Shown here in pieces: positions 3,590-55,979 of a stretch of 64,000 nt of DNA (its first letter is position 1; every line of letters begins with the position of its first letter). The stretch is from positions 43,646,001 to 43,710,000 of the forward strand of contig NC_133167.1 of NCBI RefSeq assembly GCF_040802235.1, in the 5' to 3' direction. The position numbers and the translations under genes are program-made. Origin of the DNA: Manis javanica. Lineage: Eukaryota > Chordata > Mammalia > Pholidota > Manidae. The notes under the pieces were generated by a model. It was not told the origin of the DNA and made no database searches. It saw only the letters and a program-made list of their open reading frames with translations.

Positions 3590-4569
3590 GCTCCAGAAAT
3601 GGAAGAGCAGCCAATGGGCAGGGTTGTGGGCTGTGTGGCTTGTGATCATCCAGCAGCCCTGCTCTATGGTTGTCTGCACTGACAGTGGGGCTGTCTATCA
3701 GGGCTTGACCCTGTGAATACCAGCCTGGTACTATGCCAACTGGCTGGTTGGTCACCGACCCCTTTGGGGCCAAGAATTGTGGCAAGACTTATGGGCCTGT
3801 GGTCAGACTAAAATAATCACAGTATACCATGTGTCAGGTCATTTGCCACTGGCATCCCCAGGAAATGAGGAAGCAGATAAATTGGCCCAGATACATTGGT
3901 TAGAAGGAAAGCCTGCCTCTGATGTAGCCCAATGGCTACATGAACGTTTTTTGCATGCAGGGCAAAAGACAATGTGGGCTGTAGCCCGTCAGCGGGGCTT
4001 GCCTTTGACCTTTGAAGAAGTTAGTAGGGCCCAGTAAGAGTGTGTCGTGTGCTCCAAAAGGGACTTACACCGAGTTCCACAGCAACATGGGACAATAGCT
4101 AAGGGGCCTATACCTCTCATCAGGTGGCAGATAGACTATATAGGGCCTCTACCTGTGTCAGAAGGATATCGGTATGCCATGACTTGTGCAGACACAGCTA
4201 CTGGACTTCTGGTTGCTTTTCCTACCTTTGTGCAGACCAGCAGACGACCAAAAGAGACCTGGAGCATCTCTTTGCTGCCTATGGCTGACCACAGGTAATT
4301 GAGAGTGATCAGGGCACCCATTTTACTGGACATACACTGAAAGAATGGGTGCAACAGCTGGGAATCAAATGGAAGTTTCATGTGCTGTATAATCCTATCA
4401 CAGCAGGCATGAGGGGCACAATGGCTTGTTAAAATCCAGACTAAAGTCAGATACCAATAGTCTGCAGGGATAGTCAGTCCCCTTATGGACCATGCTACAG
4501 CATTTGAATGAGAGACCCTGAAGGGGAGCCCTGAGCCCTGTAGACATGTTAACACATATGGCTACCCCC
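3590..4569 (+). pseudogene. ERV-L-like pol remnant: RNase H and integrase
   Basis: RNase H is recognisable from about 3590 to 3890: a TDS motif near 3670, then VYHVSGH and a GNEEADKLA-type motif near 3820-3880. It would degrade the RNA strand during reverse transcription. Integrase follows. It has an N-terminal zinc-binding pattern (HX3H near 3940, CX2C near 4047), a first catalytic Asp in WQIDYIGPL (about 4125-4150), the DTATGLL region near 4195, and a third acidic region in ESDQGT near 4305. Lesions include a stop at 4035-4037 and frame changes near 3710 and 4290. The reverse transcriptase that should precede RNase H is missing. The reading frame is cut at 4570 by a reverse-oriented LTR. 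Confidence 0.8.
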
Positions 4570-5032
4570 TGTCTTGCCAATGGGTTTCAGCCCTGGGCAA
4601 GTTCACTATGGATTCAATGTGATCAAAGAAATCAACAGCAAAACATTCTTGGGTGAAAAGGTTATACCCAACTTTATTTCCAGGTGGCAGGTCAGTCACT
4701 AGAATCCCATTCACTCAGAGTGAATCTGCATGCAGCAAGCCAGTCTCTGCCTCTGGGCCCCTCTATCTGCACAGCCATCCTCTGGGACTCTCTGCATGGT
4801 CATCCCACACAGCCATCCTCTGGGCTTCTGTCCTTGGCACTGCCACACTCCAGCCTCTGCTCTGCTCTGCTCTCCTGCAGCCTTGCAGCCCTGCCACTGT
4901 GTCATGCCCAGAGCACTGGGAGGAGCTCTTTTTATAGAGTCAACAGCCATGTATTGCCCACAGGTGTGCAGTGAGCTAGTCAACCAGGGTCAGGTGAGAA
5001 TCCTGGCCACAGGAACTCTCATTTTATCCACG
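4570..5032 (-). mobile_element. Reverse-oriented related LTR inserted in the provirus
   Basis: The first bases (TGTCTTGCCAATGGGTTTC) are the reverse complement of the 3' end of the surrounding provirus's own LTRs. The last part (GAGAATCCTGGCCACAGGAAC near 4997-5017) is the reverse complement of their 5' end. At about 463 bp it is longer than the provirus LTRs, so it is a relative rather than a copy. The flanks CCCCC and CTCCC are consistent with a degraded 5-bp duplication. It looks like a solo LTR that landed in integrase in the opposite orientation. Confidence 0.75.
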
Positions 5033-5787: not shown

Positions 5788-6089
5788 TGTGGGGAAGTTG
5801 GGGTTCCTATGACCAGGATCCTCACTGAACTTAAACTACCTGATGATGTAACTGGCCTGTTGCTAGGCTACCGCTTCCACACCTTTAGGCAATAAGCTAT
5901 TATTGCTCTATATAGAGAGCTTGGCCCAGTGCTCTGGGTGGAGGCAGAGATGCTCGTGCTCCACCTGCCACCAGCAGAACAAGCAGGGTAATAAACCCTT
6001 TCACCCCAAAGAATGTTTTGCTGTCAATTTCTTTAGTCACATTGTATCCACAGCGAACTTGCCCAGGGCTGAAACCCATTGGCAAGACA
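5788..6089 (+). repeat. 3' LTR of the ERV-L-like provirus
   Basis: The 302-bp LTR runs from TGTGGGGAAG to GCAAGACA and is followed by the ATTAT target duplication. It aligns along its whole length with the 5' LTR at 2328, with scattered differences. This shows that the insertion is old but still complete at both ends. Confidence 0.8.
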
Positions 6090-6094
6090 ATTAT

Positions 6095-11600: not shown

Positions 11601-12313
11601 ACTTACCTTTCTGGTTCCTAAAGAGATTTATTCAACCACCATGAACGTGTAACAGCAGACACTGCTCAATAACTCTAAATGACCGTTACTGCAATTACTT
11701 CACTTCCTCTGGTAAAAGACCTTCAGCCACAAAGACCCTCGCTGGAACACTGGAGTATAAATCATGAATTTTTTTCATCTAGAACTGGTAATAAAAGTCT
11801 CTGTCTTCTCTGACAAGGGAGTTTTCAGGATGTAAGTACAAACTTGTCTATGGCCATGTCTCCAATGAAGAAGCCAACAGATAAAGGGAAGAAAAGATGA
11901 AAGCCCCATTTACTCTTCTACAGGTACATATTAATAATGAATAAAAGCTTATTTCCATTGTTACTGTCATCCATGACTTTGCTAACTATGAGGGTAATAT
12001 GCTTCATTTTTATTGAGCCACATATAGTTTGGTTTCTGGTAAGTTACAAACAAAAAGCATAATTTACTTCATTCTAATAGCTCATTTTTATTTAAATATT
12101 CAAATATAAAGAAAATTATACATGTATCAGTGAAATAACTCAGTATCTTTCCTCTTCTTTTATATTTAATCTTATGAATCATGATCTGTTTCTTTATTTA
12201 ACACTTTCTTCCATATTCTCCTAGAGAAGAAGGAAGAGACTATGCATATGCCCAGAAAAATTTGAAGAAATCGTAGGAATCATATTCTCTAACATTTTAA
12301 TTTTAAAGACATC
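8666..12313. other. AT-rich intergenic stretch, nothing recognised
   Basis: No supported gene, RNA or named repeat was found. Open frames are short and compositionally like the background. It may contain decayed repeats beyond recognition by eye. Confidence 0.35.
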
Positions 12314-15477: not shown

Positions 15478-15491
15478 AAAAAGCACTTTCT
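15478..15491 (+). repeat. 5' target-site duplication of the chimeric L1
   Basis: AAAAAGCACTTTCT, 14 bp, is repeated perfectly at 24121-24134. The bases before it read AATT, so the insertion site is TT/AAAA, the standard L1 endonuclease target. Confidence 0.9.
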
Positions 15492-17066
15492 GGAGGAGGT
15501 GGAGCCAGGATGGCGGCATGAGTAGAGCAGTGGAAATCTCCTCCCAAAAACACATAGAGCTATGAAAATATAACAAAGAAATCTCTTCCTAAAATAGAGA
15601 CCAGAGGACACAGGACAACATCCAGACCACATCCACACCTGCAAAAACCCAGCGCCTTGCCAAGGGGGTAAGATACAAGCCCTGGCCCGGCGGGACCTGA
15701 GCGCCCCTCCCCCCGGCTCCCGGCGGGTGGAAAGAAACCGGAGGGGGTTTTTTGTTTTTTTGGTGAGTGCTTTTTCGAAGCCTTAAAGGGACAGGGACCC
15801 CATTGCTAGGGAGGCAGGGCAGCGGGACCGGTGAGCGGGTGCCTGGGACCAGTGCCTGAGGACAAAGAATATCGCGCATTTTTCCCTACAGGACCAGTGG
15901 GCAGGTGCCTGAGACTGGCGCCTGAGGACGGAGGAAATCGCGCTTTTTTCCCTTTTTTTTTTCTCTTTTTGGCGAGTGCTTTTTGGAAGCCTTAAAGGGA
16001 CAGGGACTCCGGTGCTAGGGAGGCAGAGCAGCAGGACCTGTGAGCGGGAGGCTGGGACCAGTGCCTGAGGACAAAGAATATCCCACGTTTTTCCCTGCGG
16101 GACCGGAGGGCGGGTGCCTGAGACCAGCACCTGAAGACGGAGGAAATCGAGCGTTTTTCCCCTTTTTTTTTCTCTTTTTGGTGAGTGCTTTTTGGAAGCC
16201 TTAAAGGGACAGGGACCCTGCTGCTAGGGAGGCAGAGCAGTAGGACCGGTGAGCGGGTGCCTGGGACCGGCACCTGAGGACAAAGAATATCACCCGTTTT
16301 TCCCTGTGAGACTGGTGGGTGGGTGCCTGAGACTGGCGCCTGAGGACAGAGGAAATTGCGTGTTTTTCCCCTTTTTTTTTCTCTTTTTGGTGAGTGCTTT
16401 TTGGAAGCCTTAAAGGGACAGGGACCCCAGTGCTAGGGAGGCAGAGCAGCAGGACCAGTGAGCGGGTGCCTGGGACCAGCACCTGAGGACAAAGAATATC
16501 GTGCGTTTTTCCCTGAAGGACTGGTGGGCGGGTGCTTTTTGGAAGCCTTGAAGGGACAGGGACCCCGGTGCTAGGGAGGCAAGGCAGCAGGACCAGTGAG
16601 CGGGTGCCTGGGACCGGCGCCTGAGGACAAAAAAAATTGCCTGTTCCCTCTCTCATTGTTGCTGTTGTTGTTTTGGTTTGGAGAGTGCTTTTTGGAAGTC
16701 TTAAAGGGGCAGGACAGGACACTTAGACCAGAGGCAGGGAATCTAGGGATCTCTGGGCACTCTAACCCCCTGGACAACAGGGAACACAGAGGCCCCTTAT
16801 GGAGATAAATAGACTCCTGGCCGCTCCCCCTCCAACGACGCTCCACCACTTTGGAGGAGCAGCACCAGGCAGGCCACGCCCACAGCTACAGCAGAGATAA
16901 ACTCCATAGCAAACGGGCACATAGCAGAAGCCCTGTCTGCACACAGCTGACAAGCATAAGCCATTAGAGGTCGCTATTCTCCCAGGAGAGGAAGGCCACA
17001 AACCAACAATAAGGGAAGCTCTTCTAGCGGTCACTCGTACCAGCTCTGCAAACTATCTCTATCACC
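15492..17066 (+). promoter_or_regulatory. L1 5'UTR/internal promoter with 209-bp tandem monomers
   Basis: The L1 5' end begins GGAGGAGGTGGAGCC and has an AGGATGGCGGC string near 15518 that resembles a YY1 site, as in other mammalian L1s. From 15762 to about 16700 a unit starting G(G/C)(T/C)GAGTGCTTTTTGG is repeated. Starts are at 15762, 15971, 16180 and 16389 (exactly 209 bp apart), followed by two shorter units at about 16531 and 16680. The units are GC-rich with several CpGs (GCGCGTTTTTCCC type). Such arrays act as promoters in mouse L1s; here that role is inferred. The L1 at 51.36 kb has a shorter 5'UTR with a single unit. Confidence 0.8.
15762..16700 (+). repeat. Tandem repeat array, about 4 full plus 2 partial units of 209 bp
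   Basis: Each unit includes CTTAAAGGGACAGGGAC, TGCTAGGGAGGCAGAGCAG, GGACAAAGAATATC and a T-rich end (CCTTTTTTTTTCTCTTTTTG). The first units are spaced 209, 209 and 209 bp. The later ones are deleted to about 142-149 bp. Similarity between units is high, so the array formed shortly before this copy inserted. Long open frames on the minus strand here only reflect the repeats. Confidence 0.85.
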
Positions 17067-18044
17067 ATGAAAAGGCAAAACTACAGGCAGACAAAGGTCA
17101 CAGAGACAACACCTGAGAAGGAGACAGACCTAACCAGTCCTCCTGAAAAATAATTCAAAATAAAAATCATGAACATGCTGACAGAGATGCAGAGAAAAAT
17201 GCAAGAGCAATGGGATGAAGTCCGGAGGTAGATCACAGATATCAGGAAGGAGATCACAGAAGTGAAACAATCCCTGGAAGGATTTATAAGCAGAATGGAT
17301 AAGATGCAAGAGGCCATTGAAGGAATAGAAGCCAGAGAGCAGGAACATATAGAAGCTGACATAGAGAGAGATAAAAGGATCTCCAGGAGTGAAACAACAC
17401 TCAGAGAACTATGTGACCAATCCAAAAGGAATAATATTCGTATTATAGGGGTACCAGAAGAAGAAGAAAGAGGAAAAGGGATGGAAAGAATCTTGGAAGA
17501 CATAATTGCTGAAAACTTCCCCAAACTGGGGGAGGAAATAATCGAACAGACCATGGAATTACACAGAACCCCCAACAGAAAGGATCCAAGGAGAACAACA
17601 CCAAGACACATAGTAATTAAAATGGCAAGGATCAAGGACAAGGAAAGAGTTTTAAAGGTAGCTAGAGAGAAAAAGGTCACTTTTAAAGGAAAACCCATCA
17701 GGCTAACGTCAGACTTCTCGACAGAAACCCTACAGGCCAGAAGAGAATGGCATGATATACTTAATGCAATGAAACAGAAGGGCCTTGAACAAAGGATACT
17801 GTATCCAGCACGACTTTCATTTAAATATGATGGCGGGATTAAACAATTCCCAGACAAGCAAAAGCTGAGGGAATTTGCTTCCCAAAAACCACCTCTACAG
17901 CGCATCCTACAGGGGACTGCTCTACATGGGAGCACTCCTAAAAAGAGCACAGAACAAAACACCCAACATATGAAGAATGGAGGAGGAGGAATAAGAAGGG
18001 AGAGAAGAAAAGATCTCCAGACAGTGTATATAACAGCTCAATAA
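17067..18044 (+). pseudogene. L1 ORF1 (RNA-binding nucleic-acid chaperone), two stops
   Basis: ORF1p packages L1 RNA as a trimer. The start is ATG at 17067 (MKRQNYRQ), aligned with the same start in the L1 at 52191. About 325 codons. Residues about 30-115 form the coiled coil. The RRM follows (NNIRIIGVPEEEE near residue 124). The C-terminal domain has TPRHIVIKMARIKDKE, then the REKKVTFKGKPIRL and LQARREW motifs. Stops occur at codon 29 (17151) and codon 55 (17229). The frame is open from 17262 to the end. The C-terminal tail is about 120 bp shorter than in the L1 at 52-53 kb. The first stop looks like a CAA to TAA change, because the other copy reads CAA. Confidence 0.9.
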
Positions 18045-18119
18045 GCGAGCTAAGATAGGCAGTAAGATACTAAAGAAGCTAACCTTGAACCTTTGGTAAC
18101 CACGAATCTAAAGCCTGCA

Positions 18120-21100
18120 ATGACAATAAGTACATATCTCTCAATAGTCACCCTAAATGTAAATGGACTTAAGGCACCAATCAAAAGACACAGAGTAATA
18201 GAATGGATAAAAAAGCAAGACCCACCTCTTTGCTGCTTACAAGAAACTCACCTTAAACCCAAAGACAAGCATAGACTAAAAGTCAAGGGATGGAAAAACA
18301 TATTTCAGGAAAACAACAGTGAGAAGAAAGCAGGGGTTGCAGTACTAATATCAGACAAAATAGACTTCAAAACAAAGAAAGTAACAAGAGATAAAGAAGG
18401 ACACTACATAATGATAAAGGGCTCAGTCCAACAAGAGGATATAACCATTCTAAATATATATGCACCCAATACAGGAGCACCAGCATACGTGAAGCAAATA
18501 CTAACAGAACTAAAGGGGGAAATAGGCTGCAATGCATTCATTTTAGGAGACTTCAACACACCACTCACCCCAAAGGATAGATCCACCGGGCAGAAAATAA
18601 GTAAGGACACACAGGCACTGAACAACACACTAGAACAGATGGACCTAATAGACATCTATAGAACTCTACATCCAAAAGCAACAGAATATACATTCTTCTC
18701 AAGTGCACATGGAACATTCTCCAGAATAGACCACATACTAGCCCACAAAAAGAGCCTCAGTAAATTCCAAAATATTGAAATTCTACCAACCAATTTTTCA
18801 GACCACAAAGGTGTAAAAGTAGAAATAAATTCTACAAAGAAAACAAAAAGGCTCACAAACACATGGAGGCTTAACAACATGCTACTAAATAATCAATGGA
18901 TCAATGAACAAATCAAAATAGAGATCAAGGAATATATAGAAACAAATGAAATCAACAACACAAAGCTCCAACTTCTCTGGGACGCAGCGAAAGCAGTCTT
19001 AAGAGGAAAGTATATAGCAATCCAGGCACACTTGAAGAAGGAAGAACAATCCCAAATGAATAGTCTAACATCACATTTATCGAAACTGGAAAAAGAAGAA
19101 CAAATGAGGCCTTAAGTCAGCAGAAGGAGGGACATAATAAAGATCAGAGAAGAAATAAACAAAATTGAGAAGAATAAAACAATAGCAAAAATCAACGAAA
19201 CCAAGAGCTGGTTCTTTGAGAAAATTAACAAAATAGATAAGCCTCTAGCCAAACTTATTAAGAGAAAAAGAGAATCCACACAAATCAACATAATCAGAAA
19301 TGAGAACGGAAAAATCACGACAGACTCCACAGAAATACAAAGAATTATTAAAGACTACTATGAAAACCTATATGCCAACAAGCTGGAAAACCTAGAAGAA
19401 ATGGACAACTTCCTAGAAAAATGCAACCTCCCAAGACTGACCAAGGAAGAAACACAAAGTTAAAAAAACCAATTACGAGGAAAGAAATTGAAACAGTAAT
19501 CAAAAAACTACCCAAGAACAAAATCCTGGGGCCGGACGGATTTACCTCAGAATTTTAACAGACACAAAGAGAAGACATAATACCCATTCTCCTTAAAGTG
19601 TTCCACAAAATAGAAGAAGAGGGAATACTCCCAAACTCATTCTATGAAGCCAACATCACCCTAATACCAAAACCAGGCAAAGACACCACCAAAAAAGAAA
19701 ATTACAGACCAATATCCCTGAAGAAAGTAGATGCAAAAATACTCAATAAAATATTAGCAAAGAGAATTCAACAGTATATCAAAAGGATCATACACCATGA
19801 TCAAGTGGGATTCATCCCAGGGATGCAAGGATGGTACAACATTCAAAAATCCATCAACATCATCTACCACATTAACAAAAAGAAAGACAAAAACCACATG
19901 ATCATCTCCATAGATGCTGAAAAAGCATTTGACAAAATTCAACATCCATTCATGATAAAAACTCTCAGCAAAATGGGAACAGAGGGCAAGTACCTCAACA
20001 TAATAAAGGCCATATATGATAAACCCACAGCCAGCATTATACTGAAAAGCAAGAAGCTGAAAGCATTTCCTCTGAGATCGGGAACCAGACAGGGATGCTC
20101 ACTCTCCCCACTGTTATTTAACATAGTACTGGAGGTCCTAGCCACGGCAATCAGACAAAACAAAGAAATACAAGGAATCCAGATTGGTAAAGAAGAAGTT
20201 AAACTGTCACTATTTGCAGATGACATGATATTGTATGTAAAAAACCCTAAAGACTTCACTCCAAAACTACTAGAACTGATATCGGAATACAGCAAAGTTG
20301 CAGGATACAAAACTAACACACAGAAATCTGTAGCTTTCCTATACACTAACAATGAATCAAAAGAAAGAGAAATCAGGAAAACAATTCCATTCACCATTGC
20401 ATCAAAAAGAATAAAATACCTAGCAATAAACTTAACCAAAGAAGTGAAAGACTTATACTCTGAAAACTACAAGTCATTCTTAAGAGAAATTAAAGGGGAC
20501 GCTAATAAATGGAAACTCATCCCATGCTCATGGCTAGGAAGAATTAATATCGTCAAAATGGCCATCCTGCCCAAAGCAATATACAGATTTGATGCAATCC
20601 CTATCAAATTACCAGCAACATTCTTCAATGAATTGGAACAAATAATTCAAAAATTCATATGGAAACACCAAAGACCCCGAATAACCAAAGCAATCCTGAG
20701 AAAGAAGAATAAAGTTGGAGGGGGGGGTATCTCACTCCCCAACGTCAAGCTCTACTACAAAGCCATAGTAATCAAGACAATTTGGTACTGGCACAAGAAC
20801 AGAGCCACAGACCAGTGGAACAGATTAGAGACTCCAGAAATTAACCCAAACATATATGGTCAATTAATATTTGATAAAGGAGCCATGGACATACAATGGC
20901 AAAATGACAGTCTCTTCAACAGATGGTGCTGGCAAAACTGGACAGCTACATGTAGGAGAATGAAACTGGACAATTGTCTAACCCCATATACAAAGGTAAA
21001 CTAAAAATGGATCAAAGACCTGAATGTAAGTCATGAAACCATTAAACTCTTGGAAAAAAACATAGGCAAAAACCTCTTAGACATAAACATGAGTGAACTC

Positions 21101-21940
21101 TTCTTGAACATATCTCCCCGGGCAAGGAAAACAACAGCAAAAATGAGCAAGTGGGACTACATTAAGCTGAAAAGCTTCTCTACAATGAAAGACACCATCA
21201 ATAGAACAAAAAGGAACACTACAGTATGGGAGAATATATTTGAAAATCACAGATCCGATAAAGGCTTGACGTCCCGAATATATAAAGAGCTCACACGCCT
21301 CAACAAACAAAAAACAAATAACCCAATTAAAAAATGGGCAGAGGAACTTAACAGACAGTTCTCTAAAAAAGAAATACAGATGGCCAACAGACACATGAAA
21401 AGATGCTCCACATCGCTAATTATCAGAGAAATGCAAATTAAAACTACAATGAGGTATCACCTCACACCAGTAAGGATAGCTGCCATCCAAAAGACAAACA
21501 ACAACAAATGTTGGTGAGGCTGTGGAGAAAGGGGAACCCTCCTACACTGCTGGTGGGAATGTAAATTAGTTCAACCATTGTGGAAAGCAATATGGAGGTT
21601 CATCAAAATGCTCAAAACAGACCTACCATTTGACCCAGGAATTCCACTCCTAGGAATTTACCCTAAGAATGCAGCAATCAAGTTTGAGAAAGACAGATGC
21701 ACCCCTATGTTTATTGCAGCACTATTTACAATAGCCAAGAATTGGAAGCAACCTAAATGTCCATCGGTAGATGAATGGATAAAGAAGATGTGGTACATAT
21801 ACACAATGGAATACTACTCATCCATAAGAAGTGGAAAAATCCAATCATTTGCAGAAACATGGATGGAGCTGGAGAGTATTATGCTCAGTGAAATAAGCCA
21901 AGTGGAGAAAGAGAAATACCAAATGATTTCACTCATCTGA
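18120..21940 (+). pseudogene. L1 ORF2 (endonuclease-reverse transcriptase), five lesions
   Basis: ORF2p nicks the target and reverse-transcribes the RNA. I chose the ATG at 18120 (MTISTYLSIVTLNVNGL), the usual L1 start; an in-frame ATG at 18093 also exists. The apurinic-type endonuclease, residues 1 to about 240, keeps LNVNGL, CLQETH, LGDFNT, SRIDHI and SDHKGV. The reverse transcriptase from about 19590 keeps the FADD active site at 20213-20224. The cysteine-rich end lies near 21485-21580. Total length of about 1274 codons equals a normal L1 ORF2. Lesions are a stop at 19113, a frameshift with stop near 19457-19465, a stop near 19556, a stop at 21002, and TGA at 21515 (a CGA to TGA change by comparison with the copy at 48.9 kb). 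Confidence 0.9.
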
Positions 21941-22312
21941 GGAGTATAAGAACAAAGGAAAAACTGAAGGAACAAAACAGCAGCAGAATTACAGAACCCA
22001 AAAATGGACTAACAGGTACCAAAGGGAATGGAACTGGGGAGGATGGGTGGGCAGGGAGGGATAAGGGGGGAGAAGGAGAAAGGGTGTATTAAGATTAGCA
22101 TGCATGGCGGCGGGAGGGAGGGAGGGGAGTGTGGGCTGCACAACACAGAGAGGACACGTAGTGATTCTACAACATTTTGCTAAGCTGATGGGCAGTAACC
22201 ATAATGAGGTTGTTAGGGGGGACCTGATATAGGGGAGAGCATAGGAAACATAGTATTCTTCATGTAAGTGTAGATTAAAGATTAAAAAAAAAAAAGAAAA
22301 AAAGAAAGAAAA
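21941..22312 (+). other. L1 3'UTR with G-rich tract and internal A-rich end
   Basis: After the ORF2 stop the sequence has a polypurine region, including GGCGGCGGGAGGGAGGGAGG (about 22107-22126), a candidate G-quadruplex as is typical of L1 3'UTRs. Then come AACACAGAGAGGACACGTAG and the closing TTCATGTAAGTGTAGATTAA with an A-rich tract at 22283-22312. In an ordinary L1 the element would end here, as do the L1s at 54.5 and 56.95 kb. Here it is followed by more transposed sequence. Confidence 0.85.
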
Positions 22313-22470
22313 GGGGGGTTACTCCTTGATAGGATAAAACTATTGGTAAATCAAAGATCAACGCATGCTTTAAATATCCTTAATATTGATCACTTAAAGG
22401 GTGTCAGATGATCAGCTATGGAGGTACTCTTTTCTGATAATATTCCTTTCTCTTAATAAAAAAAAAAAAG
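22313..22470 (+). other. Extra polyadenylated module between L1 3'UTR and env segment
   Basis: About 158 bp of unrelated sequence end in AATAAA (22455-22460) running into an A12-type tract (to 22469). It is not present in the second chimera copy, where the L1 A-tract joins the env segment directly (49700/49701). I do not recognise it. It could be an earlier or separate transduced 3' flank, or an insertion into the A-tract of this lineage. Confidence 0.55.
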
Positions 22471-23790
22471 CAGTTCCTGTGTGCTGACCTCCAATGAGTT
22501 CTGCACAGTGGTATAGAGGGCATGTCAAAGTGTGGGCAAAGGGTCTGTTTGTTTCTATGCAGAAGATCAAGGCCTAGCTTGGATACCCAGAAAATGAACT
22601 AAGATACAATATGAGGAGGAGCTTCCAGCATCAGCACTCTCTGGAGGACTCGCGCCAGGGGGATTATCATCAAAAAGCCTCCACAGGGATCCGGGCGATG
22701 CTGCGGTTGTGGCTGCATCCACCCCACCGTTTCCTGGACTTGCCATAGGAATGAGGAGGGAGATGTCTAGGCTGGCATGTGCATACAGTGAGACAACGAA
22801 TTTGACCGGATATGTACTGTTGGAACTCAACCAGGAGTTGCGAGGGGTACAAGTTGTAGCACTCCAAAATCTTATGACTATAGAATATCTATGGTTAAAA
22901 GAACATATGGGATGTGAACAGATCCCAGAAATGGGCTGCTTTAATTTGTCTGATTTCTCTCAGACTGTTCAAGTAGAGTTGGACAATATTCATCGTATCA
23001 TAGACAAATTTTCACAAATGCCTAGGGTGCCTAAATGGTTTCCTTGGCTTCACTGGAGATGGATGGTAATTATAGATTTGCTTTGTTTATGTCACTGTAT
23101 TCCTATTATGTTAATATGTGTGTGCAAATTAGTTAGTAGTTTAAACCTATACATACTTATGGTACTCTACAAGAAGATATGTCAAAGAAATAATCAATCC
23201 TCCCATGTTTTCTTCCATATGCTACCTCTATAGCTTTTCTTCTTCCTTCCTAATTACAACCCTTAAATAGAATTTGTGCCTCATATCGAATTTACCGAGT
23301 ATTACAATTCCTCCAGGTGGTAAAGATACCTCGAGACAAGTGCTGGGCATAGAAGCCACAGGGCATAAATCTGCAAAGAAGTAAAAAGCTAACCTTTTCA
23401 AACAATATGGCTTCTCTCTCACTTACCAACTTTACATTTCCCTGTATGGCCCCGGAAGATGACTGGTTAGCCAGAGACGGGTAAGATTCCTCAAGGGAGG
23501 AACAACCTAAGACAGGCACAGTCACAGGGGGGCCATCAGGTGAGAAATTGGGGATCAACAGAGGTGAGGCTCAGAACCTCACCCCTCCTGCTTTGAGAGA
23601 AATCTTCTTCATCCGTGGATGTTTTGCTGCCCTTGTCTAGCCTGGATTAATACTTAGTCCATAGGCACACACCTGATCATCTACATTTGCCCTCTTACAG
23701 CACTAAACTATGTTTTCTACCTTTATCTTGCATCTACCTACCACTTCAGCATTTTATTAAAAATAAAAATAATAATAATAAAGGGAGAAA
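22471..23790 (+). pseudogene. Captured retroviral env transmembrane region to polypurine tract
   Basis: This is the 3' part of a retroviral envelope gene. An open stretch at 22709-23233 (174 codons) encodes, in order, a helical region (VALQNLMTIEYLWLKEHMGC), a two-cysteine loop (GCEQIPEMGC), a second helical stretch (VELDNIHRIIDKFSQMP), a tryptophan-rich membrane-proximal part and a hydrophobic anchor (MVIIDLLCLCHCIPIMLICV). There is no CX6CC motif, so it resembles class II/lentivirus-type rather than gammaretrovirus-type transmembrane subunits; this is inference. The fusion peptide and surface subunit are missing or degraded. The ATG is arbitrary. About 550 bp of 3' non-coding sequence follow, ending in a polypurine tract, AAAGGGAGAAA, at 23780-23790. 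The same segment recurs at 49701-51015. Confidence 0.7.
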
Positions 23791-24113
23791 TGTGGGATCA
23801 ACATATAAATCAAGTATAAAAATCAAACGAATATTCATATTTGACCTGATTGTTTATAGGTCAAAATGCGTGATCAAAACCGAAAGTTTCTGTGATGACT
23901 GCCCTTGTACTGTTCACCATGTAAGAACTTATTCACTATGTAAGAATTCGTTCACCATGTAAGAACTTGTTCGTTATGCTTCAGAAGATTGGAGACTGAC
24001 GAGAATTAGGCTTGAGATTGATTAATGATTGTACACTGAGCACTGACCCCCCTATACTGAATTTTATTGTTGTTAACAACCATTTGATCAATAAATATGA
24101 GAGGTGCCCTGTC
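23791..24113 (+). repeat. Truncated retroviral LTR (U3-R) used as L1 3' end
   Basis: The LTR begins TGTGGGATC right after the polypurine tract and runs 323 bp. It has a 19-bp direct repeat (GTTCACCATGTAAGAACTT) three times at 23912-23968. AATAAA lies at 24090-24095, and the sequence turns into poly(A) at 24114, 18 nt after it. U5 is absent. This is what a polyadenylated viral-type RNA would give, so the LTR was copied from RNA that ended in R. The copies at 51016-51338 (323 bp) and 55679-55975 (297 bp) end at the same base. Confidence 0.85.
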
Positions 24114-24127
24114 AAAAAAAAAAAAGC
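24090..24127 (+). terminator. LTR poly(A) signal and poly(A) tail of the chimera
   Basis: AATAAATATGAGAGGTGCCC with cleavage after GTC and an A tract at 24114-24125. Part of the A run overlaps the target duplication. Confidence 0.85.
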
Positions 24128-24134
24128 ACTTTCT
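24121..24134 (+). repeat. 3' target-site duplication of the chimeric L1
   Basis: AAAAAGCACTTTCT, identical to 15478-15491, lies directly after the poly(A). It fixes the 3' boundary of the insertion beyond the LTR. Confidence 0.9.
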
Positions 24135-47098: not shown

Positions 47099-47109
47099 AA
47101 AACAGAAGG
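47099..47109 (+). repeat. Target duplication, first of three copies
   Basis: AAAACAGAAGG. The same string is at 51350-51360, and AAAACAGAATGG is at 54496-54507. The preceding bases are TTT, giving a TT/AAAA endonuclease site. Confidence 0.8.
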
Positions 47110-47114
47110 GTTGC

Positions 47115-49350
47115 CCCACCAAAAAAGAAAATTACAGACCAATATCACTGATGAATGTAGATGCAAAAATACACAATAAAATATAAGCAAACAGAATTCA
47201 ACAGTATATCAAAAGGATCATACACCATGACCAAGTGGGATTCATCCCAGGGATGCAAGGATGGTACAACATTCAAAAATCCATCAACATCATCTACCAC
47301 CTAAACAAAAAGAAGGAAAGAAACCACATGATCATCTCCATAAATGCGGAAAAAGCATTTGACAAAATTCAACATCCATTCATGATAAAAACTCTCAGCA
47401 AAATGGGTATACAGGGCAAGTACCGCAACATAATAAAGGCCGTATATGATAAACACACAGCCAACATCATACTGAACAGTGAGAAGCTGAAAGCATTTCC
47501 TCTGAGATCAGGAACCAGACAGGGATGGCCACTCTCCCCACTGTTATTTAACATAGTACTGGAGGTCCTAGCCACGGCAATCAGACAAAACAAAGATATA
47601 CAAGAAATCCAGATTGGTAAAGAAGAAGTTAAACTGTCACTATTTGCAGATGATATGATACTGTTCATAAAAAACTCCAAAACTACTAGAACTGATATCG
47701 GAATACAGCAAAGTTGCAGGATACAAAATTAACACACAGAAATCTGTAGCTTTCCTATACACTAACAATGAGCCAATAGAAAGAGAAATCAGGAAAACAA
47801 TTCCATTCACAATTGCATCAAAAAGAATAAAATACCTAGGAATAAACCTACCAAAGAAGTGAAAGACTTATACTCTGAAAACTACAAGTCACTCTTAAGA
47901 GAAATTAAAGGGGACACTAACAAATGGAAACTCATCCCATGCTCATGGCTAGGAAGAATTAATATCGTCCAAATGGCCATCCTGCCTAAAGCAATATACA
48001 GATTTGATGCAATCCCTATCAAATTACCAGCAACATACTTCAATGAATTGGAACAAATAATTCAAAAATTCATATGGAAACACCAAAGACTCCGAATAGC
48101 CAAAACAATCCTGAGAAAGAAGAATAAAGTAGGGGGGATCTCACTCCCCAACTTCAAGCTCTACTACAAAGCCATAGTAATCAAGACAATTTGGTAATGG
48201 CACAAGAACAGAGCCACAGACCAGTGGAACAGATTAGAGACTCCAGAAATTAACCCAAACATATATGGTCAATTAATATTTGATAAAGGAGCCATGGACA
48301 TACAATGGCAAAATGACAGTCTCTTCAACAGATGGTGCTGGCAAAACTGGACAGCTACATGTAGGAGAATGAAACTGGACAATTGTCTAACCCCATATAC
48401 AAAGGTAAACTCAAAATGGATCAAAGACCTGAATGTAAGTCATGAAACCATTAAACTCTTGGAAAAAAACATAGGCGAAAACCTCTTAGACATAAACATG
48501 AGTGAACTCTTCTTGAACATATCTCCCCGGGCAAGGAAAACAACAGCAAAAATGAGCAAGTGGGACTACATTAAGCTAAAAAGTTTCTGTACAGCAAAAG
48601 ACACCATCAATAGAACAAAAAGGAACCCTACAGTATGGGAGAATATATTTGAAAATGACACATCCGATAAAGGCTTGACGTCCAGAATATATAAAGAGCT
48701 CACATGCCTCAACAAACAAAAAAACAAATAACCTAATTAAAAATGGGCAGAGGAACTGAACAGAGAGTTCTCCAAAAAAGAAATACAGATGGCCAACAGA
48801 CACATGAAAAGATGCTCCACATCGCTAATTATCAGAGAAATGCAAATTAAAACTACAATGAGGTATCACCTCACACCAGTAAGGATAGCTGCCATCCAAA
48901 AGACAAACAACAAGAAATGTTGGCGAGGCTGTGGAGAAAGGGGAACCCTCCTACACTGCTGGTGGGAATGTAAATTAGTTCAACCATTGTGGAAAGCAGT
49001 ATGGAGGTTTATCAAAATGCTCAAAACAGACCTACCATTTGACCCAGGAATTCCACTCCTAGGAATTTACCCTAAGAACGCAGCAATCAAGTTTGAGAAA
49101 GACAGATGCACCCCTATGTTTATCGCAGCACTATTTACAATAGCCAAGAATTGGAAGCAACCTAAATGTCCATCGGTAGATGAATGGATAAAGAAGATGT
49201 GGTACATATACACAATGGAATACTACTCAGCCATAAGAAGAGGAAAAAATCCTACCATTTGCAGCAACATGGATGGAGCTGGAGAGTATTATGCTCGGTG
49301 AAATAAGCCAAGTGGAGAAAGAGAAATACCAAATGATTTCACTCATCTGA
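47115..49350 (+). pseudogene. L1 ORF2 C-terminal two thirds (copy 2), broken
   Basis: The reverse-transcriptase FADD motif is present near 47647. A 14-nt deletion near 47675 relative to copy 1 shifts the frame. A further frame change lies near 47850, and TGGTAA near 48192 replaces a TAC codon. A frameshift lies near 48720 and another near 49245. The cysteine region ([18 protein letters not shown]) near 48915-48970 keeps the arginine codon that became a stop in copy 1. Confidence 0.85.
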
Positions 49351-49700
49351 GGAGTATAAGAACAAAGGAAAAACTGTAGGAACAAAACAGCAGCAGAATT
49401 ACAGAACCCAAAAATGGACTAACAGGTACCAAAGGGAAAGGAATTGGGGACGATGGGTGGGCAGGGGGGGAATGGAAGGGGAGAAGAAGCGGGGTATTAA
49501 GATTAGCATGCATAGTCGGGGGAGGGAGAAAGGGGAGGGAGGGCTGTACAACACAGAGAGGACAAGTAGTGATTCTACATTTTGCTATGCTGATGGACAG
49601 TGACCGTAATGTGGTTTTTAGGGGGGACCTGATATAGGGGAGAGCATAGTAAACATAGTATTCTTCATGTAAGTGTAGATTAAAGATTAAAAAAAATAAT

Positions 49701-51015
49701 CAGTTCCTGTGTGCTGACCTCCAGTGAGTTCTACACAGTGGTATAGAGGGCATGTCAAAGTGTGGGCAAAGGGTCTGTTTGTTTCCATGCAGAGATCAAG
49801 GCCTAACTTGGATATCCAGAAAATGAACTAAGATACAATATGAGGAGGAGCTTCCGGCATCAGCACTCTCTGGAGGACTCGTGCCGGGGGATGATCATCA
49901 AAAAAGTCTCCACAGGGATCCGGGTGATGCTGCGGTTGTAACTGCGTCCACCCCACCATTTCCTGGACTTGCCATTGGAATGAGGAGGAAGATGTCTAGA
50001 CTGGCATGTGCATACAGTGAGACAACGAATTTGACTGGATCTGTACTGTTGGAACTCAACCAGGAGTTGGGAGGGGTGCAAGTTGTAGCGCTCCAAAACC
50101 TATACGACTATAGACTATCTACGGTTAAAAGAACATATGGGATGTGAAGAGATCTCAGAAATGGGCTGCTTTAATTCGTCTGACTTCTCTCAGACTGTTC
50201 AAGTACAGTTGGACAATGTCCATCATATCATAGGCTAATTTTCACAAATGCCTAGGGTGCCTAAATGGTTTTCTTGGCTTCACTGGAGATGGATGGTAAT
50301 TATAGATTTGCTTTGTTTATGTCACCGTATTCCTATTATGTTAATATGTGTGTGCAAATTAGTTAGTAGTTTAAAACCTATACATACTTAAGGTACTCTA
50401 CAAGAAGATATGTCAAAGAAATAACCAATCCTCCCATGTTTTCTTCCATATGCTACCTCTATAGCTTTTCTTCTTCCTTCCTAATTACAACCCTTAAATA
50501 GAATTCGTGCCTCATATCGAATTTACCGAGTATCATAATTCCTCCAGGTGGTAAAGATACCTCGAGACAAGTGCTGGGCATAGAAGCCACAGGGCATAAA
50601 TCTGCAAAGAAGTAAAAAGCTAACCTTTTCAAACAATAAGGCTTCTCTCTCACTTACCAACTTTACATCTCCCTGTATGGCCCCGGAAGATGACTGGTTA
50701 GCCAGAGATGGGTAAGATTCCTTAAGGGAGGAACAATCTAAGACAGGCACAGTTGCAGGGGGGCCATCAGGTGAGAAATTGGGGATCAACAGAAGTGAGG
50801 CTTAGAACCTCACTCCCCCTGTTCTGAGAGAAATCTTCTGCATCCATGGATGTTTTATTGCCCCTGTCTAGCTTGGATTAGCACATAGTCTACAGGCACA
50901 CTCCTGATCATCTACAATTGCTCTCTTACGACACTAAACTATGTTTTCTACCTTTATCTTGCATCTACCTAACACTTCAGCATTTTATTAAAAATAATAA
51001 TAATAAAGAGAGAAA
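49701..51015 (+). pseudogene. Captured env transmembrane region, copy 2
   Basis: Homologue of 22471-23790. The helical region through the two-cysteine loop is recognisable, but the frame changes near 50095. A stop also falls near 50237, so no envelope product is possible. The 3' non-coding part, the A-rich AATAATAATAA stretch and the polypurine-like AGAGAGAAA before the LTR are conserved. Confidence 0.75.
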
Positions 51016-51338
51016 TGTGGCATTCACATATAAATCAAGTATAAAAATCAAACAAATATTCATATTTGACCTGATTGTTTATATTTCATAATGCGTGATC
51101 AAAACCGAAAGTTTCTGTGATGAATGCCCTTGTACTGTTCACCGTGTAAGAACTTATTCACTATGTAAGAATTCGTTCACCATGTAAGAACTTGTTCGTT
51201 ATGCCTCAGAAGATTGGAGACTGAAGAGAACTAGGCTTGAGATGGATTAATGACTGTGCATTGAGCATTGACCCCCCTATACAGAATTTTATTGTTGTTA
51301 ACAACCATTCTATCAATAAATATGAGAGATGCCCTCTC
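51016..51338 (+). repeat. Truncated LTR (U3-R), copy 2
   Basis: 323 bp from TGTGGCATTC to GCCCTCTC, with AATAAA near 51315 and the same poly(A) point as copies 1 and 3. The 19-bp repeat occurs three times from 51137. Confidence 0.85.
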
Positions 51339-51349
51339 AAAAAAAAAAA

Positions 51350-51360
51350 AAAACAGAAGG
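51350..51360 (+). repeat. Target duplication, second of three copies
   Basis: AAAACAGAAGG lies between the poly(A) of chimera copy 2 and the 5' end of the next L1. It serves as the 3' duplication of copy 2 and the 5' duplication of the L1 at 51361. Its last GG may already be the first bases of that L1. Confidence 0.75.
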
Positions 51361-52190
51361 ATCGAGGTGGAGCCAAGATGGTGGCATGAATATAGCAGTG
51401 GAAATCTCCCAAAACCATATATATTTTTGAAAATACAACAAATACAACTATTCCTAAAAGAGAGACCAGAAGACACAGGACAACAGCCAGACTACATCTA
51501 CACCTACGAGAACCAAGTGCCTCACAAAGGGGGAAAGATACAAGCTGCGGCGCAGCAGGACCCTAGTGCCCTTCAACCCAGCTCCCAGTGGGAAGAGAGG
51601 AGTCGGAGCAGGGAGGGAGAGGGAGCCCAGAACTGCTAAACACCCAGCCCTAGCCAACCACACCAGAGCACAGACACACAGCGTGGAGTGCTGGATACTA
51701 GGGAAACAGGACAGTAAGACCTGGGAGTGGTCCCTACAGCTGGTGCCCCTGGGACAAAAAAAAGCAAATGTATTTTGAAAGTCTTAAAGGGACAGTGACC
51801 CCACAGCGGGATGGAAGCATCCCATGACACTTAGACCAGCAGCTGGAAACCAAAGGAACTCCAGGTGCCATAACCCTCTGGGCAGCAGCATAGCTGGGAG
51901 ACCCCTCACAGCAATAAACAGCATCCTGCCCATTTCCCCTCCACGTGACTCTGCCATATTCAAGCAGCCGCTTGAGGCAGGCCAGGCCTACAGCAACTGT
52001 GGAGCTCCACAGCAGCCGGGCAAGAATCAGAGACTCCATCTGCACGCAGCTGGCCAGCACAAGCTGCTAGGGGTCGCTGTTCTCCCAGGAGAGGAAGGCC
52101 ACAAACCATCAAGATGGGACATTCTCCCAGCTGACACAGGTGCCAGCTCCATACAACTACCTTTAGCTCCATACAACTCCCTTTATCTCC

Positions 52191-53294
52191 ATGAAAAGGC
52201 AGAATTTGATACAAACAAGACTAACCCAGACATCCTCCCATGAGAAGGAATCTGGGAGGATAGACCTAACCAATCTCCCTGAAAAACAATTCAAAATAAA
52301 GGTCATAACCATGCTGATGGAGATGCAGAGAAATATGCAAGAGCTAAGGGATGATTTCTGGAAGGAGAATACAGAAATGAAATGATCTCTGGAAGGATTT
52401 ATAAGCAGAATGGATAAGATGCAAGAGGCCATTGATGGAATAGAAACCAGAGAACAGAAACACATAGAAGCTGACGCAGAGAGAGATAAAGGATCTCCAA
52501 GAATGAAACAATATTAAGAGAACTGTGTGACCAATCACAAAGAAACAAAAACAAAGAAACAATCCCAGAAAAATCTTCTGGGATACCAGAAGAAGAAGAG
52601 AGAGAGAAAGGGATAGAAAGTGTATTTGAAGAAATAATTGCTGAAAACTTCCCCAAACTGAGGGAGGAAATAATCGATCAGACCAAGGAAGTACACAGAA
52701 CTCCCAACAGAAGGACAACACCCAAGGAGGACAACACCAAGACACATAATTAAAACAGCAAAGATCAAGGACAAAGACAGAGTTTTAAAGGCAGCTAGAG
52801 AGAGGAAAAAGGTCACCTACAAAGGAAAACCCATCAGGCTACCATCAGACTTCTCAACAGAAACCTTGCAAGCCAGAAGAGAATGGCATGATATATTTAA
52901 TGCAATGAAACAGAAGGGCCTTGAATCAAGGACACTGTATCCAGCATGATTATCATTTAAATATGAAGGAGGGATTAAACAATTCCCAGACAAGCAAAAG
53001 CTGAGGGAATTTTCCTCCCACAAACCACCTCTACAGGGTATTTTACAGGGACTGCTCTAGATGGGAGCACACCTAAGACTAAAAAGATGACACCAGGGAA
53101 AATAAAATCACAGCAAAGAAAGCAGACCAACCAAATACTAACTAAACACAAAAAATAAAATCAACTACCCACAAAAGCAGTTAAAGGAAATATAAAAGAG
53201 CACAGAATAAAACAAGCAACATATAAAGAATGGAGGAGGAGGAATAAGAAGGGAGGGAAATAAACATCAGTCTGTGTTTATAATAGCTCAATAA
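52191..53294 (+). pseudogene. L1 ORF1, broken
   Basis: It starts MKRQNLIQTRLTQ at 52191, with a 64-codon first open piece covering the N-terminus and start of the coiled coil, and TGA at 52383. Coiled-coil, RRM and C-terminal regions can be traced in shifted frames to about 53040. A long lysine-rich tail follows to the stop near 53292. About 120 bp of that tail are absent from chimera copy 1. Confidence 0.8.
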
Positions 53295-53337
53295 ATGAGT
53301 TAAGTTAGTAAGGTAGTAAAACAGCTAACCTGAACCT

Positions 53338-54341
53338 TTGGTAACCACGAATCTAAAGCCTGCAATGGCAATAAGTACGTATCTTGCAATAATCACCCTA
53401 AATGTGAATAGACTAAATACACCAATCAAAAGACACAGAGTAATAGAATGGATAAAAAAGCAAGACCTATCTATATGCTGCTTACAAGAGACTCACATCA
53501 AATGGATAAAAAAGCAAGACCCATCAATATGCTGCTTACAAGAAACTCACCTCAAACCCAAAGACATGTATAGGCTGAAAGTCAAGGGATGGAAAAACAT
53601 ATTTCAGGCAAAGCAAACAGCGAGAAGAAAGCAGGGGTTGCAGTACTAATATCAGACAAAACAGACTTCAAAACAAAGAAAGAAACAAGAGATAAAGAAG
53701 GACACTACATCACTACATAATGATAAAGGGCTCAGTCCAACAAGAGGATATAACCATTATAAATATATATGTGTCCAACACAGGAGCACCAGCATACGTG
53801 AAACAAATACTAACACAACTAAAGGAGGAAATAGAAAGCAATGCATTCATTTTAGGAGACTTCAACATGCCACTCACTCCAAAGGACAGATGCACCAGAC
53901 AGAAAATAAGTAAGGACACAGAGGCACTGAACAACACACTAGAACAGATAGACCTAATAGACATCTAAGGAACTCTACATCAAAAAACAACAGGATACAC
54001 ATTCTTCTCAAGTGTGCATGGAACATTCTCCAGAATAGACCACATACTAGGCCACAAAAAGAGCCTCAGTAAATTCCAATAGATTGAAATTCTACCAACC
54101 AACTTTTCAGACCACAAAGGTATAAAACTAGAAATAAATTGTACAAAGAAAACAAAAAGGCTCAGAAACACGTGGAGGCTTAACAACATACTCCTAAATA
54201 ATCAATGGATCAATGAACAAATTAAAATAGAGATCAAGGAATATATGGAAACAAATGACAACAACAACACAAAGCCCCAACTTCTGTGGGACACTGTGAA
54301 AGCAGTCTTAAGAGGAAAGTATATAGCAATCCAGGCATACA
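53338..54341 (+). pseudogene. L1 ORF2 endonuclease portion with 54-bp internal duplication, truncated
   Basis: The ORF2 start region (MAISTYLAIITLNVN at 53365) is followed by an exact-length tandem duplication of 54 bp (53449-53502 and 53503-53556). It repeats the WIKKQD.SICCLQETH segment in frame, so the catalytic Glu motif is present twice. LGDFNM and SRIDHI-type motifs follow in other frames. The sequence ends at the internal deletion junction near 54341; there is no reverse transcriptase. Confidence 0.8.
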
Positions 54342-54495
54342 ACACAGTGAAGACAAGTAGTGATTCTACAGCATCTTACTACACTGATGGACAGTGACTG
54401 TAATGGAGTGGGCGGGACTTCATGAGGGGGGCAGCCTAGTGAACATGGTGTTCTTCATGTAATTGTAGATTAATGATAACAAAAAAAACAGAAAA

Positions 54496-54507
54496 AAACA
54501 GAATGGT
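54496..54507 (+). repeat. Target duplication, third of three copies
   Basis: AAAACAGAATGG follows the A-rich end of the L1. It most likely shows the original sequence of the old L1M host. Confidence 0.7.
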
Positions 54508-55514: not shown

Positions 55515-55979
55515 CCTTGCCTAGCTTGTATTAATACTTAGTCTATAGGCACACACCTGATCATCTACATTAGCCCTCTTACAGCACTAAACTATGTTTT
55601 CTACCTTTATCTTGCATCTACCTACCACTTCAGCATTTTATTAGAAATAATAATATAATAACAATAATAAGGAAGAAATGTGGGATTCACATACAAATCA
55701 AGTATAAAAATCAAATGAATAATCATATTTGACCTGATTGTTTATAGTTCATGATGCGTGATCAAAACCGAAAGTTTCTGTGATGACTGCCCTTGCACTG
55801 TTCACCATGTAAAAACTTGTTCACCATGTAAGAACTTGTTCGTTATGCTTCAGAAGATTGGAGACTGTTGAGAATTAGGCTTGGGGTTGATTAATGATTG
55901 TGCATTGAGTTCCCTATACAGAATTTTATTGTTGTTAACAACCATATGATCAATAAATATGAGAGATGCCCTCTCAAAA
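55515..55979 (+). mobile_element. LTR-tail-only insertion (chimera tail, copy 3)
   Basis: About 460 bp equal to the last part of the chimera tail. It starts at a point corresponding to about 23632 in copy 1 (TGCCTAGCTTGTATTAATAC) and includes the A/T-rich pre-LTR stretch. The LTR from 55679 to 55975 ends GCCCTCTC plus poly(A). The 17-bp duplication and the poly(A) show L1-type retrotransposition. The LTR lacks one of three 19-bp repeats and a few bases, hence 297 bp. No L1 sequence is attached. It is either an extreme 5' truncation of a chimera RNA or an independent mobilisation of the retroviral 3' end. Confidence 0.85.

Follow-up and report, generated by a model that had tools for sequence, protein, structure and literature searches.

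Transductions at the 3' end of long interspersed element 1 (L1) retrotransposons are common but mostly minor, and the known 3' transduction families comprise few copies each, with a tag drawn from unique flanking sequence. The SINE-R element derives from the env-long terminal repeat (LTR) part of HERV-K10. One L1 3' transduction family is treated in PMC6425141; SVA, a composite element with an LTR part, is mobilised by L1, and 5' L1 chimeras (U6/L1 and others) consist of L1 and another RNA inserted as one unit (both in sections of PMC13174262), while processed pseudogenes of HERV-W made by L1 have a U3-R 3' end, a poly(A) tail and target duplications (section of PMC5537654). A mouse 'chimeric L1' described in part of PMC6500023 is an engineered construct of part of L1 ORF2 with a MaLR LTR. 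Both an alpha-like endogenous retrovirus (ERV) family and a gamma ERV whose env and 3' LTR are separated by a nearly complete L1 are described from Manis pentadactyla (sections of PMC12584738). Here, a stretch of 64,000 nucleotides (64 kb; hereafter the window) of the Manis javanica genome was analysed, in which an element designated U1 (positions 15478-24134, forward strand) joins a full-length L1 to a retroviral 3' end. It is proposed, with a probability of about 0.9, that U1 belongs to an L1 lineage of autonomous type which acquired this retroviral end through an L1 lying in an ERV env and read-through of its RNA. No account of an L1 lineage with a retroviral tail was found among the papers listed by full-text searches of an open-licence library, Dfam and Repbase not included.

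U1 is bounded by an exact 14-bp duplication, AAAAAGCACTTTCT, at 15478-15491 and 24121-24134, which has no other occurrence in the window; no match as long arose among random pairs of stretches of the same size, of which up to 2000 were drawn. Between the two copies lie the full-length L1 and 1.8 kb of retroviral env, polypurine tract (PPT), U3 and R. A preliminary description of this DNA had claimed both a perfect duplication around the unit and the order of complete L1, env transmembrane (TM) region, PPT, U3-R and poly(A); the first was confirmed by the position of the exact copies and the second by Pfam domains, matches to avian-retrovirus (ASLV) TM chains and an AATAAA signal. The features of U1 are listed below.

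15478..15491, forward strand: 5' target-site duplication of U1, AAAAAGCACTTTCT.
15492..22287, forward strand: full-length L1 body with 5' untranslated region (5'UTR), ORF1, ORF2 (stops break the frame) and 3'UTR.
22288..22304, forward strand: A-rich tract of the L1 at the join, A(n)(GAAA)n.
22305..23779, forward strand: C-terminal part of retroviral env and downstream region; 22305-22641 aligns to the ERV env piece L089, and 22598-23230 is a TM-like frame.
22456..22467, forward strand: A-run internal to env, the 3' boundary of a deletion in copies U2 and L092.
23780..23792, forward strand: PPT-like run preceding the LTR, identified by eye.
23791..24114, forward strand: U3-R of the LTR without U5; starts with TGTGGG, which shares the final bases of the purine run, has AATAAA at 24090 and ends in CA followed by poly(A).
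24115..24120, forward strand: poly(A) tail of U1, merging into the A's of the duplication.
24121..24134, forward strand: 3' target-site duplication of U1.

The L1 5' end (15492) directly follows the 5' duplication, and the 5'UTR contains three tandem 209-bp units starting at 15748, 15957 and 16166 (array 15748-16713), an arrangement resembling the monomer-type L1 promoters of rodents. ORF1 was matched by Transposase_22 (2.5e-26) and ORF2 by the endonuclease (1.1e-22) and reverse transcriptase (2e-42) domains of Pfam; as PF02994, PF17490, PF03372 and PF00078 were all above cut-off, U1 carries the RNA-binding ORF1 and the endonuclease/reverse transcriptase ORF2 of an L1. Among the 120 matches listed for the ORF2 piece, the nearest were Manis javanica L1 proteins (93% identity over 68% of the query and 87% over 77%), the remainder having at most 79% identity. 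ORF2 of U1 is interrupted by stops, so this copy is dead and not competent for retrotransposition. In the tail, the frame at 22598-23230 matched solved ASLV TM chains (E of about 1e-6) and also 13 short unnamed proteins, while the env fragment had no Pfam match up to E=10 and likewise none in NCBIfam. The AATAAA lies at 24090-24095, about 19 nt upstream of the poly(A), and AATAAA is absent from the L1 end of U1, where ATTAAA occurs twice.

The same structure bears on whether U1 is an ERV provirus interrupted by an L1, the two never having moved together. A precedent is ERV-Gamma.b9-Mpen of Manis pentadactyla, with its L1 between env and 3' LTR (section of PMC12584738). At U1, however, the 5' end of the L1 adjoins the duplication, and downstream of R come poly(A) and the 14-bp duplication instead of U5, so that the two LTRs with U5 and the short integration repeat of a provirus are absent; together with the identical join at thousands of places (see below), this makes an interrupted provirus extremely unlikely. 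The outer duplication is in itself no proof of a single event, since a tail inserted into an L1 A-tail at a later time would give the same picture, and it is to that extent compatible with the tail being a separate retroposon, inserted independently into L1 A-tails. Joint insertion of U1 is settled by the genome-wide evidence.

The genome searched comprised 2.56 Gb in 63 contigs. A 21-bp pattern across the join, AAAGAAAAGGGGGATTACTCC, was found at 12,261 places with at most one mismatch, compared to 0 for the reversed control; these are places and not separate insertions, because some look like segmental duplicates, loci L140 and L157 being identical. On contig C1, join places at about 1.82, 4.50 and 23.48 Mb repeat with equal spacing (about 4.4 and 58.5 kb), a regularity pointing to segmental duplications. 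When 20 exact pattern matches were sampled evenly from 100 listed, all on C1, the L1 3'UTR preceded the join in 19. The junction probe (22250-22700) gave 1549 first-look candidates, and in all 40 that were scored, U1 included, the match began no later than base 3 and reached base 451 with at least 95% identity. For 22312-22454 as probe there were 349 candidates, with L1 and env contiguous in 30 of 30 loci read (U1 included) and contiguous over the whole 3.1 kb in 27; the exceptions were L060 and L070, which start within the L1, and L062, whose match ends at 22704. From the LTR probe, 958 candidates were obtained, and in all 30 loci read (among them U1, and L018 and L019, which are one place) an A-rich tract immediately followed R, U5 being present in none. 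With a probe of the L1 3'UTR only, 2868 candidates were obtained and 39 besides U1 were scored; the tail was present in all 20 of the best that were read downstream, and one of these 20 (L092) had a deletion between the A-runs of the same kind as in U2. The copied unit therefore does not end with the L1's own 3'UTR and poly(A), and because it ends at the end of R the element is an L1 variant. Occurrence of the junction thus goes far beyond the two copies first recognised, and the proposal that the chimera is a mobile element and family of its own was upheld by the same join at thousands of places and by the distinct flanks of the copies read for insertion signs.

Some further observations were made on these loci. 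At L018/L019 (C17:4959026-4959727) two U3-R units occur in tandem with an A-rich tract and a polypurine tract between them, and L035 suggests likewise. L078 and L080 share about 210 bp (95%) downstream of the A-tail, which may be a second transduction or an insertion into copies of another repeat. Scans of viral contigs and of plasmids gave nothing, and two matches of a short pattern in bacterial contigs were taken as chance.

Insertion signatures were read in 22 loci whose matched part started inside the fetched stretch; three of these were LTRs with U5 (L075, L082 and L088), leaving 19 copies. Perfect duplications of 13-19 bp, with one repeat at the 5' edge and the other following the A-tail, were observed in 13 of the 19, imperfect ones, judged by eye, in three (L021, L030 and L031), and none was seen in the other three (L004, L037 and L087), so that distinct flanks and duplications are the rule, as the preliminary description required of a family. 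AAAA starts 12 of the 13 perfect duplications. Such duplications, combined with an A-tail, are the mark of target-primed reverse transcription by L1, and the family shows the TT/AAAA-type site, target duplications, poly(A) and 5' truncation of L1 insertions. In L007 the duplication encloses the L1 end and the tail jointly, as in U1 and U2, and in these three copies sequence past the L1 A-tail, a new poly(A) and one duplication are found together, as in a 3' transduction; the other 12 perfect cases are tail-only truncations.

Tail-only copies of this kind, which make up most loci of the set and include a third copy in the window, could be taken as a mobile unit without L1, but their 5' ends are scattered, as expected from truncation. 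Furthermore, the tail was found in 20 of 20 copies read with the L1 3'UTR probe, and the same join was found in all nine further tail copies read, seven of which are clearly older (85-89% identity to the U1 tail); a tenth copy, L077, was left out of this reading as its tail reached the edge of its stretch. The distances of L1 and tail are also correlated: over 45 copies of mixed age, those of the L1 3'UTR (a 146-bp stretch) and the tail gave r=0.88 (0 of 2000 shuffles), and over 32 similar copies r=0.40 (1 of 2000 shuffles). The reading of the tail as nested in an L1 A-tail was accordingly dropped on the 20 tails, the single join and the correlated distances, and a separate retroposon is given hardly any credence.

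The L1 end of the seven older copies is of the ATTAATGATAACAAAA type, which also occurs in a tail-less L1 in the window (at about 54470); fusion onto an L1 of this type would be consistent with that. The tree of the tails (midpoint root; bootstrap not fully settled) was ladder-like, with the ERV L082 beside the oldest copies, youngest tips of 0.002-0.007 changes per site and older tips of 0.027-0.063. At about 2.2e-9 neutral changes per site per year, the tip lengths correspond to about 1-3 million years for the youngest and about 12-29 million years for the older tips. Among the 32 similar copies, mean differences were 2.8% in ORF2, 5.2% in the 3'UTR and 3.8% in the tail, and the closest pair, on different contigs, was 0.28% apart in the L1 part. 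L1 body and tail have diverged together, in one ladder-like lineage, over a long period.

An ERV related to the tail was identified in the same genome. The end of R was followed by two non-A bases at 18 places, three of which share about 115 bp beyond it, the U5; the nine further tail copies described above, and L077, also belong to this set of places. L075 is a whole solo LTR (TGTGGG...CA) with GAGGG on both sides, lying inside an L1, and L082 has env and an LTR with U5. Further upstream at the L082 locus, L089 aligns unbroken to U1 22305-22641 (76% over 338 columns); the 150 bp between the A-runs of U1 is therefore env, and the true L1/env join lies at about 22305 and not at 22456, where it had been placed before. 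Two candidate readings were dropped, as the stretches concerned are env's own sequence: that U1 is the founder, 12 of the 14 bases of its duplication resembling 22465-22478, and that 22312-22455 is a separately transduced piece.

Of 156 candidates for an env probe placed immediately upstream of the join, 40 were scored (86-100%), and 19 of these were read across the site (L119-L122 and 15 places from 16 short stretches, one of which repeats L122). In all 19, env was uninterrupted at the join site. Twelve of the 16 short stretches have TTAAAA at the join point, and eight have the full TTAAAACAAAAAGGGGG. TT/AAAA is the motif of the L1 endonuclease (section of PMC13174262). In the family itself the join reads A(n)(GAAA)nGAAAAGGGGGATTACTCC or near (matched in 24 of the 68 loci scanned, U1 being counted twice among the 24).

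These reads are also what bears on a founding event by template switching, in which the L1 enzyme would have switched from env-LTR RNA onto an L1 RNA at its A-tail during reverse transcription, the resulting insertion later seeding the family. L1 chimeras made by template switching or RNA ligation are documented (section of PMC13174262), the product, L1-A(n)-env-LTR-A(n) with outer duplications, would be indistinguishable, and the founder locus that would exclude such an event was not found in the 19 of 40 scored ERV copies. On the other hand, a join at the TT/AAAA motif of the ERV env (12 of 16 short stretches) is predicted by insertion and not by a jump, and in the chimeras of PMC13174262 the foreign RNA lies 5' of the L1. 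Template switching is for these reasons considered improbable.

The preferred explanation is thus that ordinary target-primed reverse transcription would have placed an L1 at TT/AAAA in the env of an ERV, both lying in one orientation. RNA from the L1 promoter would then have passed the L1's own end and run through the rest of env, the PPT and U3, to be cleaved, as the sequence suggests, at the LTR AATAAA at the end of R, and this read-through RNA would have become the standard RNA of the lineage. An L1-A(n)-env-PPT-U3-R-A(n) unit, inserted in the manner of an L1, is present at thousands of places. Because it occurs at so many places, shows L1-type insertions and has a body and tail that diverged jointly, the 1.8-kb tail is the present 3' end of the lineage. 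For the origin put forward in the preliminary description, an L1 in a same-orientation ERV env using the LTR poly(A) site, support came from env running through the join and from the TTAAAA there, while the founding locus was not recovered; of the parental ERV with env and U5 that it anticipated, a related multi-copy ERV was found (L082 and L075), the direct parent not being among the copies compared.

Several observations weigh against this origin. The founder locus, with the L1 still in the ERV env, was not found in the 19 of 40 scored ERV copies, and four of the 16 short stretches have an altered TTAAAA. The position of the join is not exact to the base, because the family has (GAAA)n where most ERV stretches have AAAACAAAA. 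Identity between the tail of U1 and the ERV copies compared is no more than 73-80%, and U1-like copies average 16% from L082 over the stretch used for the 45-copy distances, so that no ERV copy seen is the direct parent. In addition, one of the 20 sampled join places (L143) is without an L1 3'UTR before the join, and the samples are skewed to U1-like copies, save for the nine further copies in which the join was read and the 20 join matches on C1.

Two further copies of the tail are present in the window. The preliminary description had counted two copies in all, and while U1 and U2 stand, a third, tail-only copy had been missed.

47099..47109, forward strand: 5' duplication of U2, AAAACAGAAGG, 11 bp.
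47110..51349, forward strand: copy U2, a 5'-truncated L1 (to about 49690) with an env-LTR tail (about 49701-51339), the equivalent of 22305-22455 being lost through a secondary deletion.
51350..51360, forward strand: 3' duplication of U2; the 5' end of the next L1 adjoins directly.
55518..55976 (about), forward strand: third copy, comprising the part just before the PPT, PPT-U3-R and poly(A), 5'-truncated and lying inside another L1.

The third copy is flanked by an 18-bp duplication with two mismatches (AAAATGGGCAGAGGACCT and AAAATGGACAGAGGAGCT). The L1 ends of U1 and U2 clustered against the three tail-less L1s of the window (support 100/100; 32 shared sites), and the divergence between the two copies is 5.1% for the L1 part and 6.6% for the tail. 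Over the part of ORF2 compared (19691-21937), U1 has two stops and U2 four plus short gaps; as none is in common, their common source was open over this part. The codon-position bias between them was weak, with 54 of 78 single-change codons nonsynonymous compared to 80% expected at random, and changes over codon positions gave P =0.19 (chi-square).

The L1 at 51350-54500 starts right after the 3' duplication of U2 and has a 3' flank of its own, AAAACAGAATGG, which is a near-identical target; U2 and this L1 are two separate insertions at one endonuclease site, after which the target is present three times. Elsewhere in the window, 1192-2634 is a fragment of a different ERV, with an env piece (Pfam TLV_coat, 9.8e-58) followed by an LTR-like repeat, of which a second copy (89%) lies at 5788-6092 and an inverted piece at 4569-4720. 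Between these repeats, a weak RNase H match at 3717-4034 (3e-4, under the curated cut-off) hints at a further remnant of retroviral pol.

As regards the spread of the lineage, a stronger terminator is a plausible gain, because R has AATAAA where the L1 end of U1 has only ATTAAA, and on these signals one may hypothesise that the LTR poly(A) signal was advantageous. It is suggested more tentatively, and at somewhat less than even odds, that the captured retroviral 3' end, with its strong poly(A) signal and perhaps also an element for RNA export or stability, made the L1 fitter, so that this lineage took over the L1 niche of its host and was recently active. If true, replacement of the 3' end by retroviral LTRs would be a route of L1 evolution, with SINE-R/SVA as a second, independent case. 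In this L1 subfamily, which has a long history and occurs at thousands of places, the transduced retroviral sequence has become the 3' end. An L1 has here exchanged the segment of its RNA that governs poly(A) use, which offers a natural experiment on what may limit L1, such as poly(A) signal strength and 3'UTR length. Repeat annotation of this genome may list thousands of env and LTR fragments beside L1s that are really L1 tails.

Compared to the systems described at the outset, this env-LTR end parallels that of SVA and SINE-R of hominoids, where a 3' part of ERV env and LTR ending in poly(A) is likewise moved by L1 proteins. SVA is, however, non-autonomous, with an Alu-like and variable number tandem repeat (VNTR) body and no L1 coding body, whereas the ERV piece here ends a full L1 with ORF1 and ORF2. 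With L1 3' transduction families the lineage shares read-through into the flank, use of a poly(A) signal lying further downstream and the serial copying of the tag, but the tag here is retroviral and present in 20 of 20 members of the subfamily read, from older to young copies. HERV-W pseudogenes have the same U3-R-poly(A) end but are ERV RNAs moved in trans, without an L1 body, and 5' L1 chimeras carry the foreign part on the 5' side and are not described as a propagating lineage in the section of PMC13174262 concerned. Among the pangolin MPERVs, there is an alpha-like family in Manis pentadactyla, and the TM of the tail is nearest, among solved chains, to that of ASLV; the L1-containing gamma ERV of the same species may be related to the founding arrangement, or may be an element such as this one that was misread.

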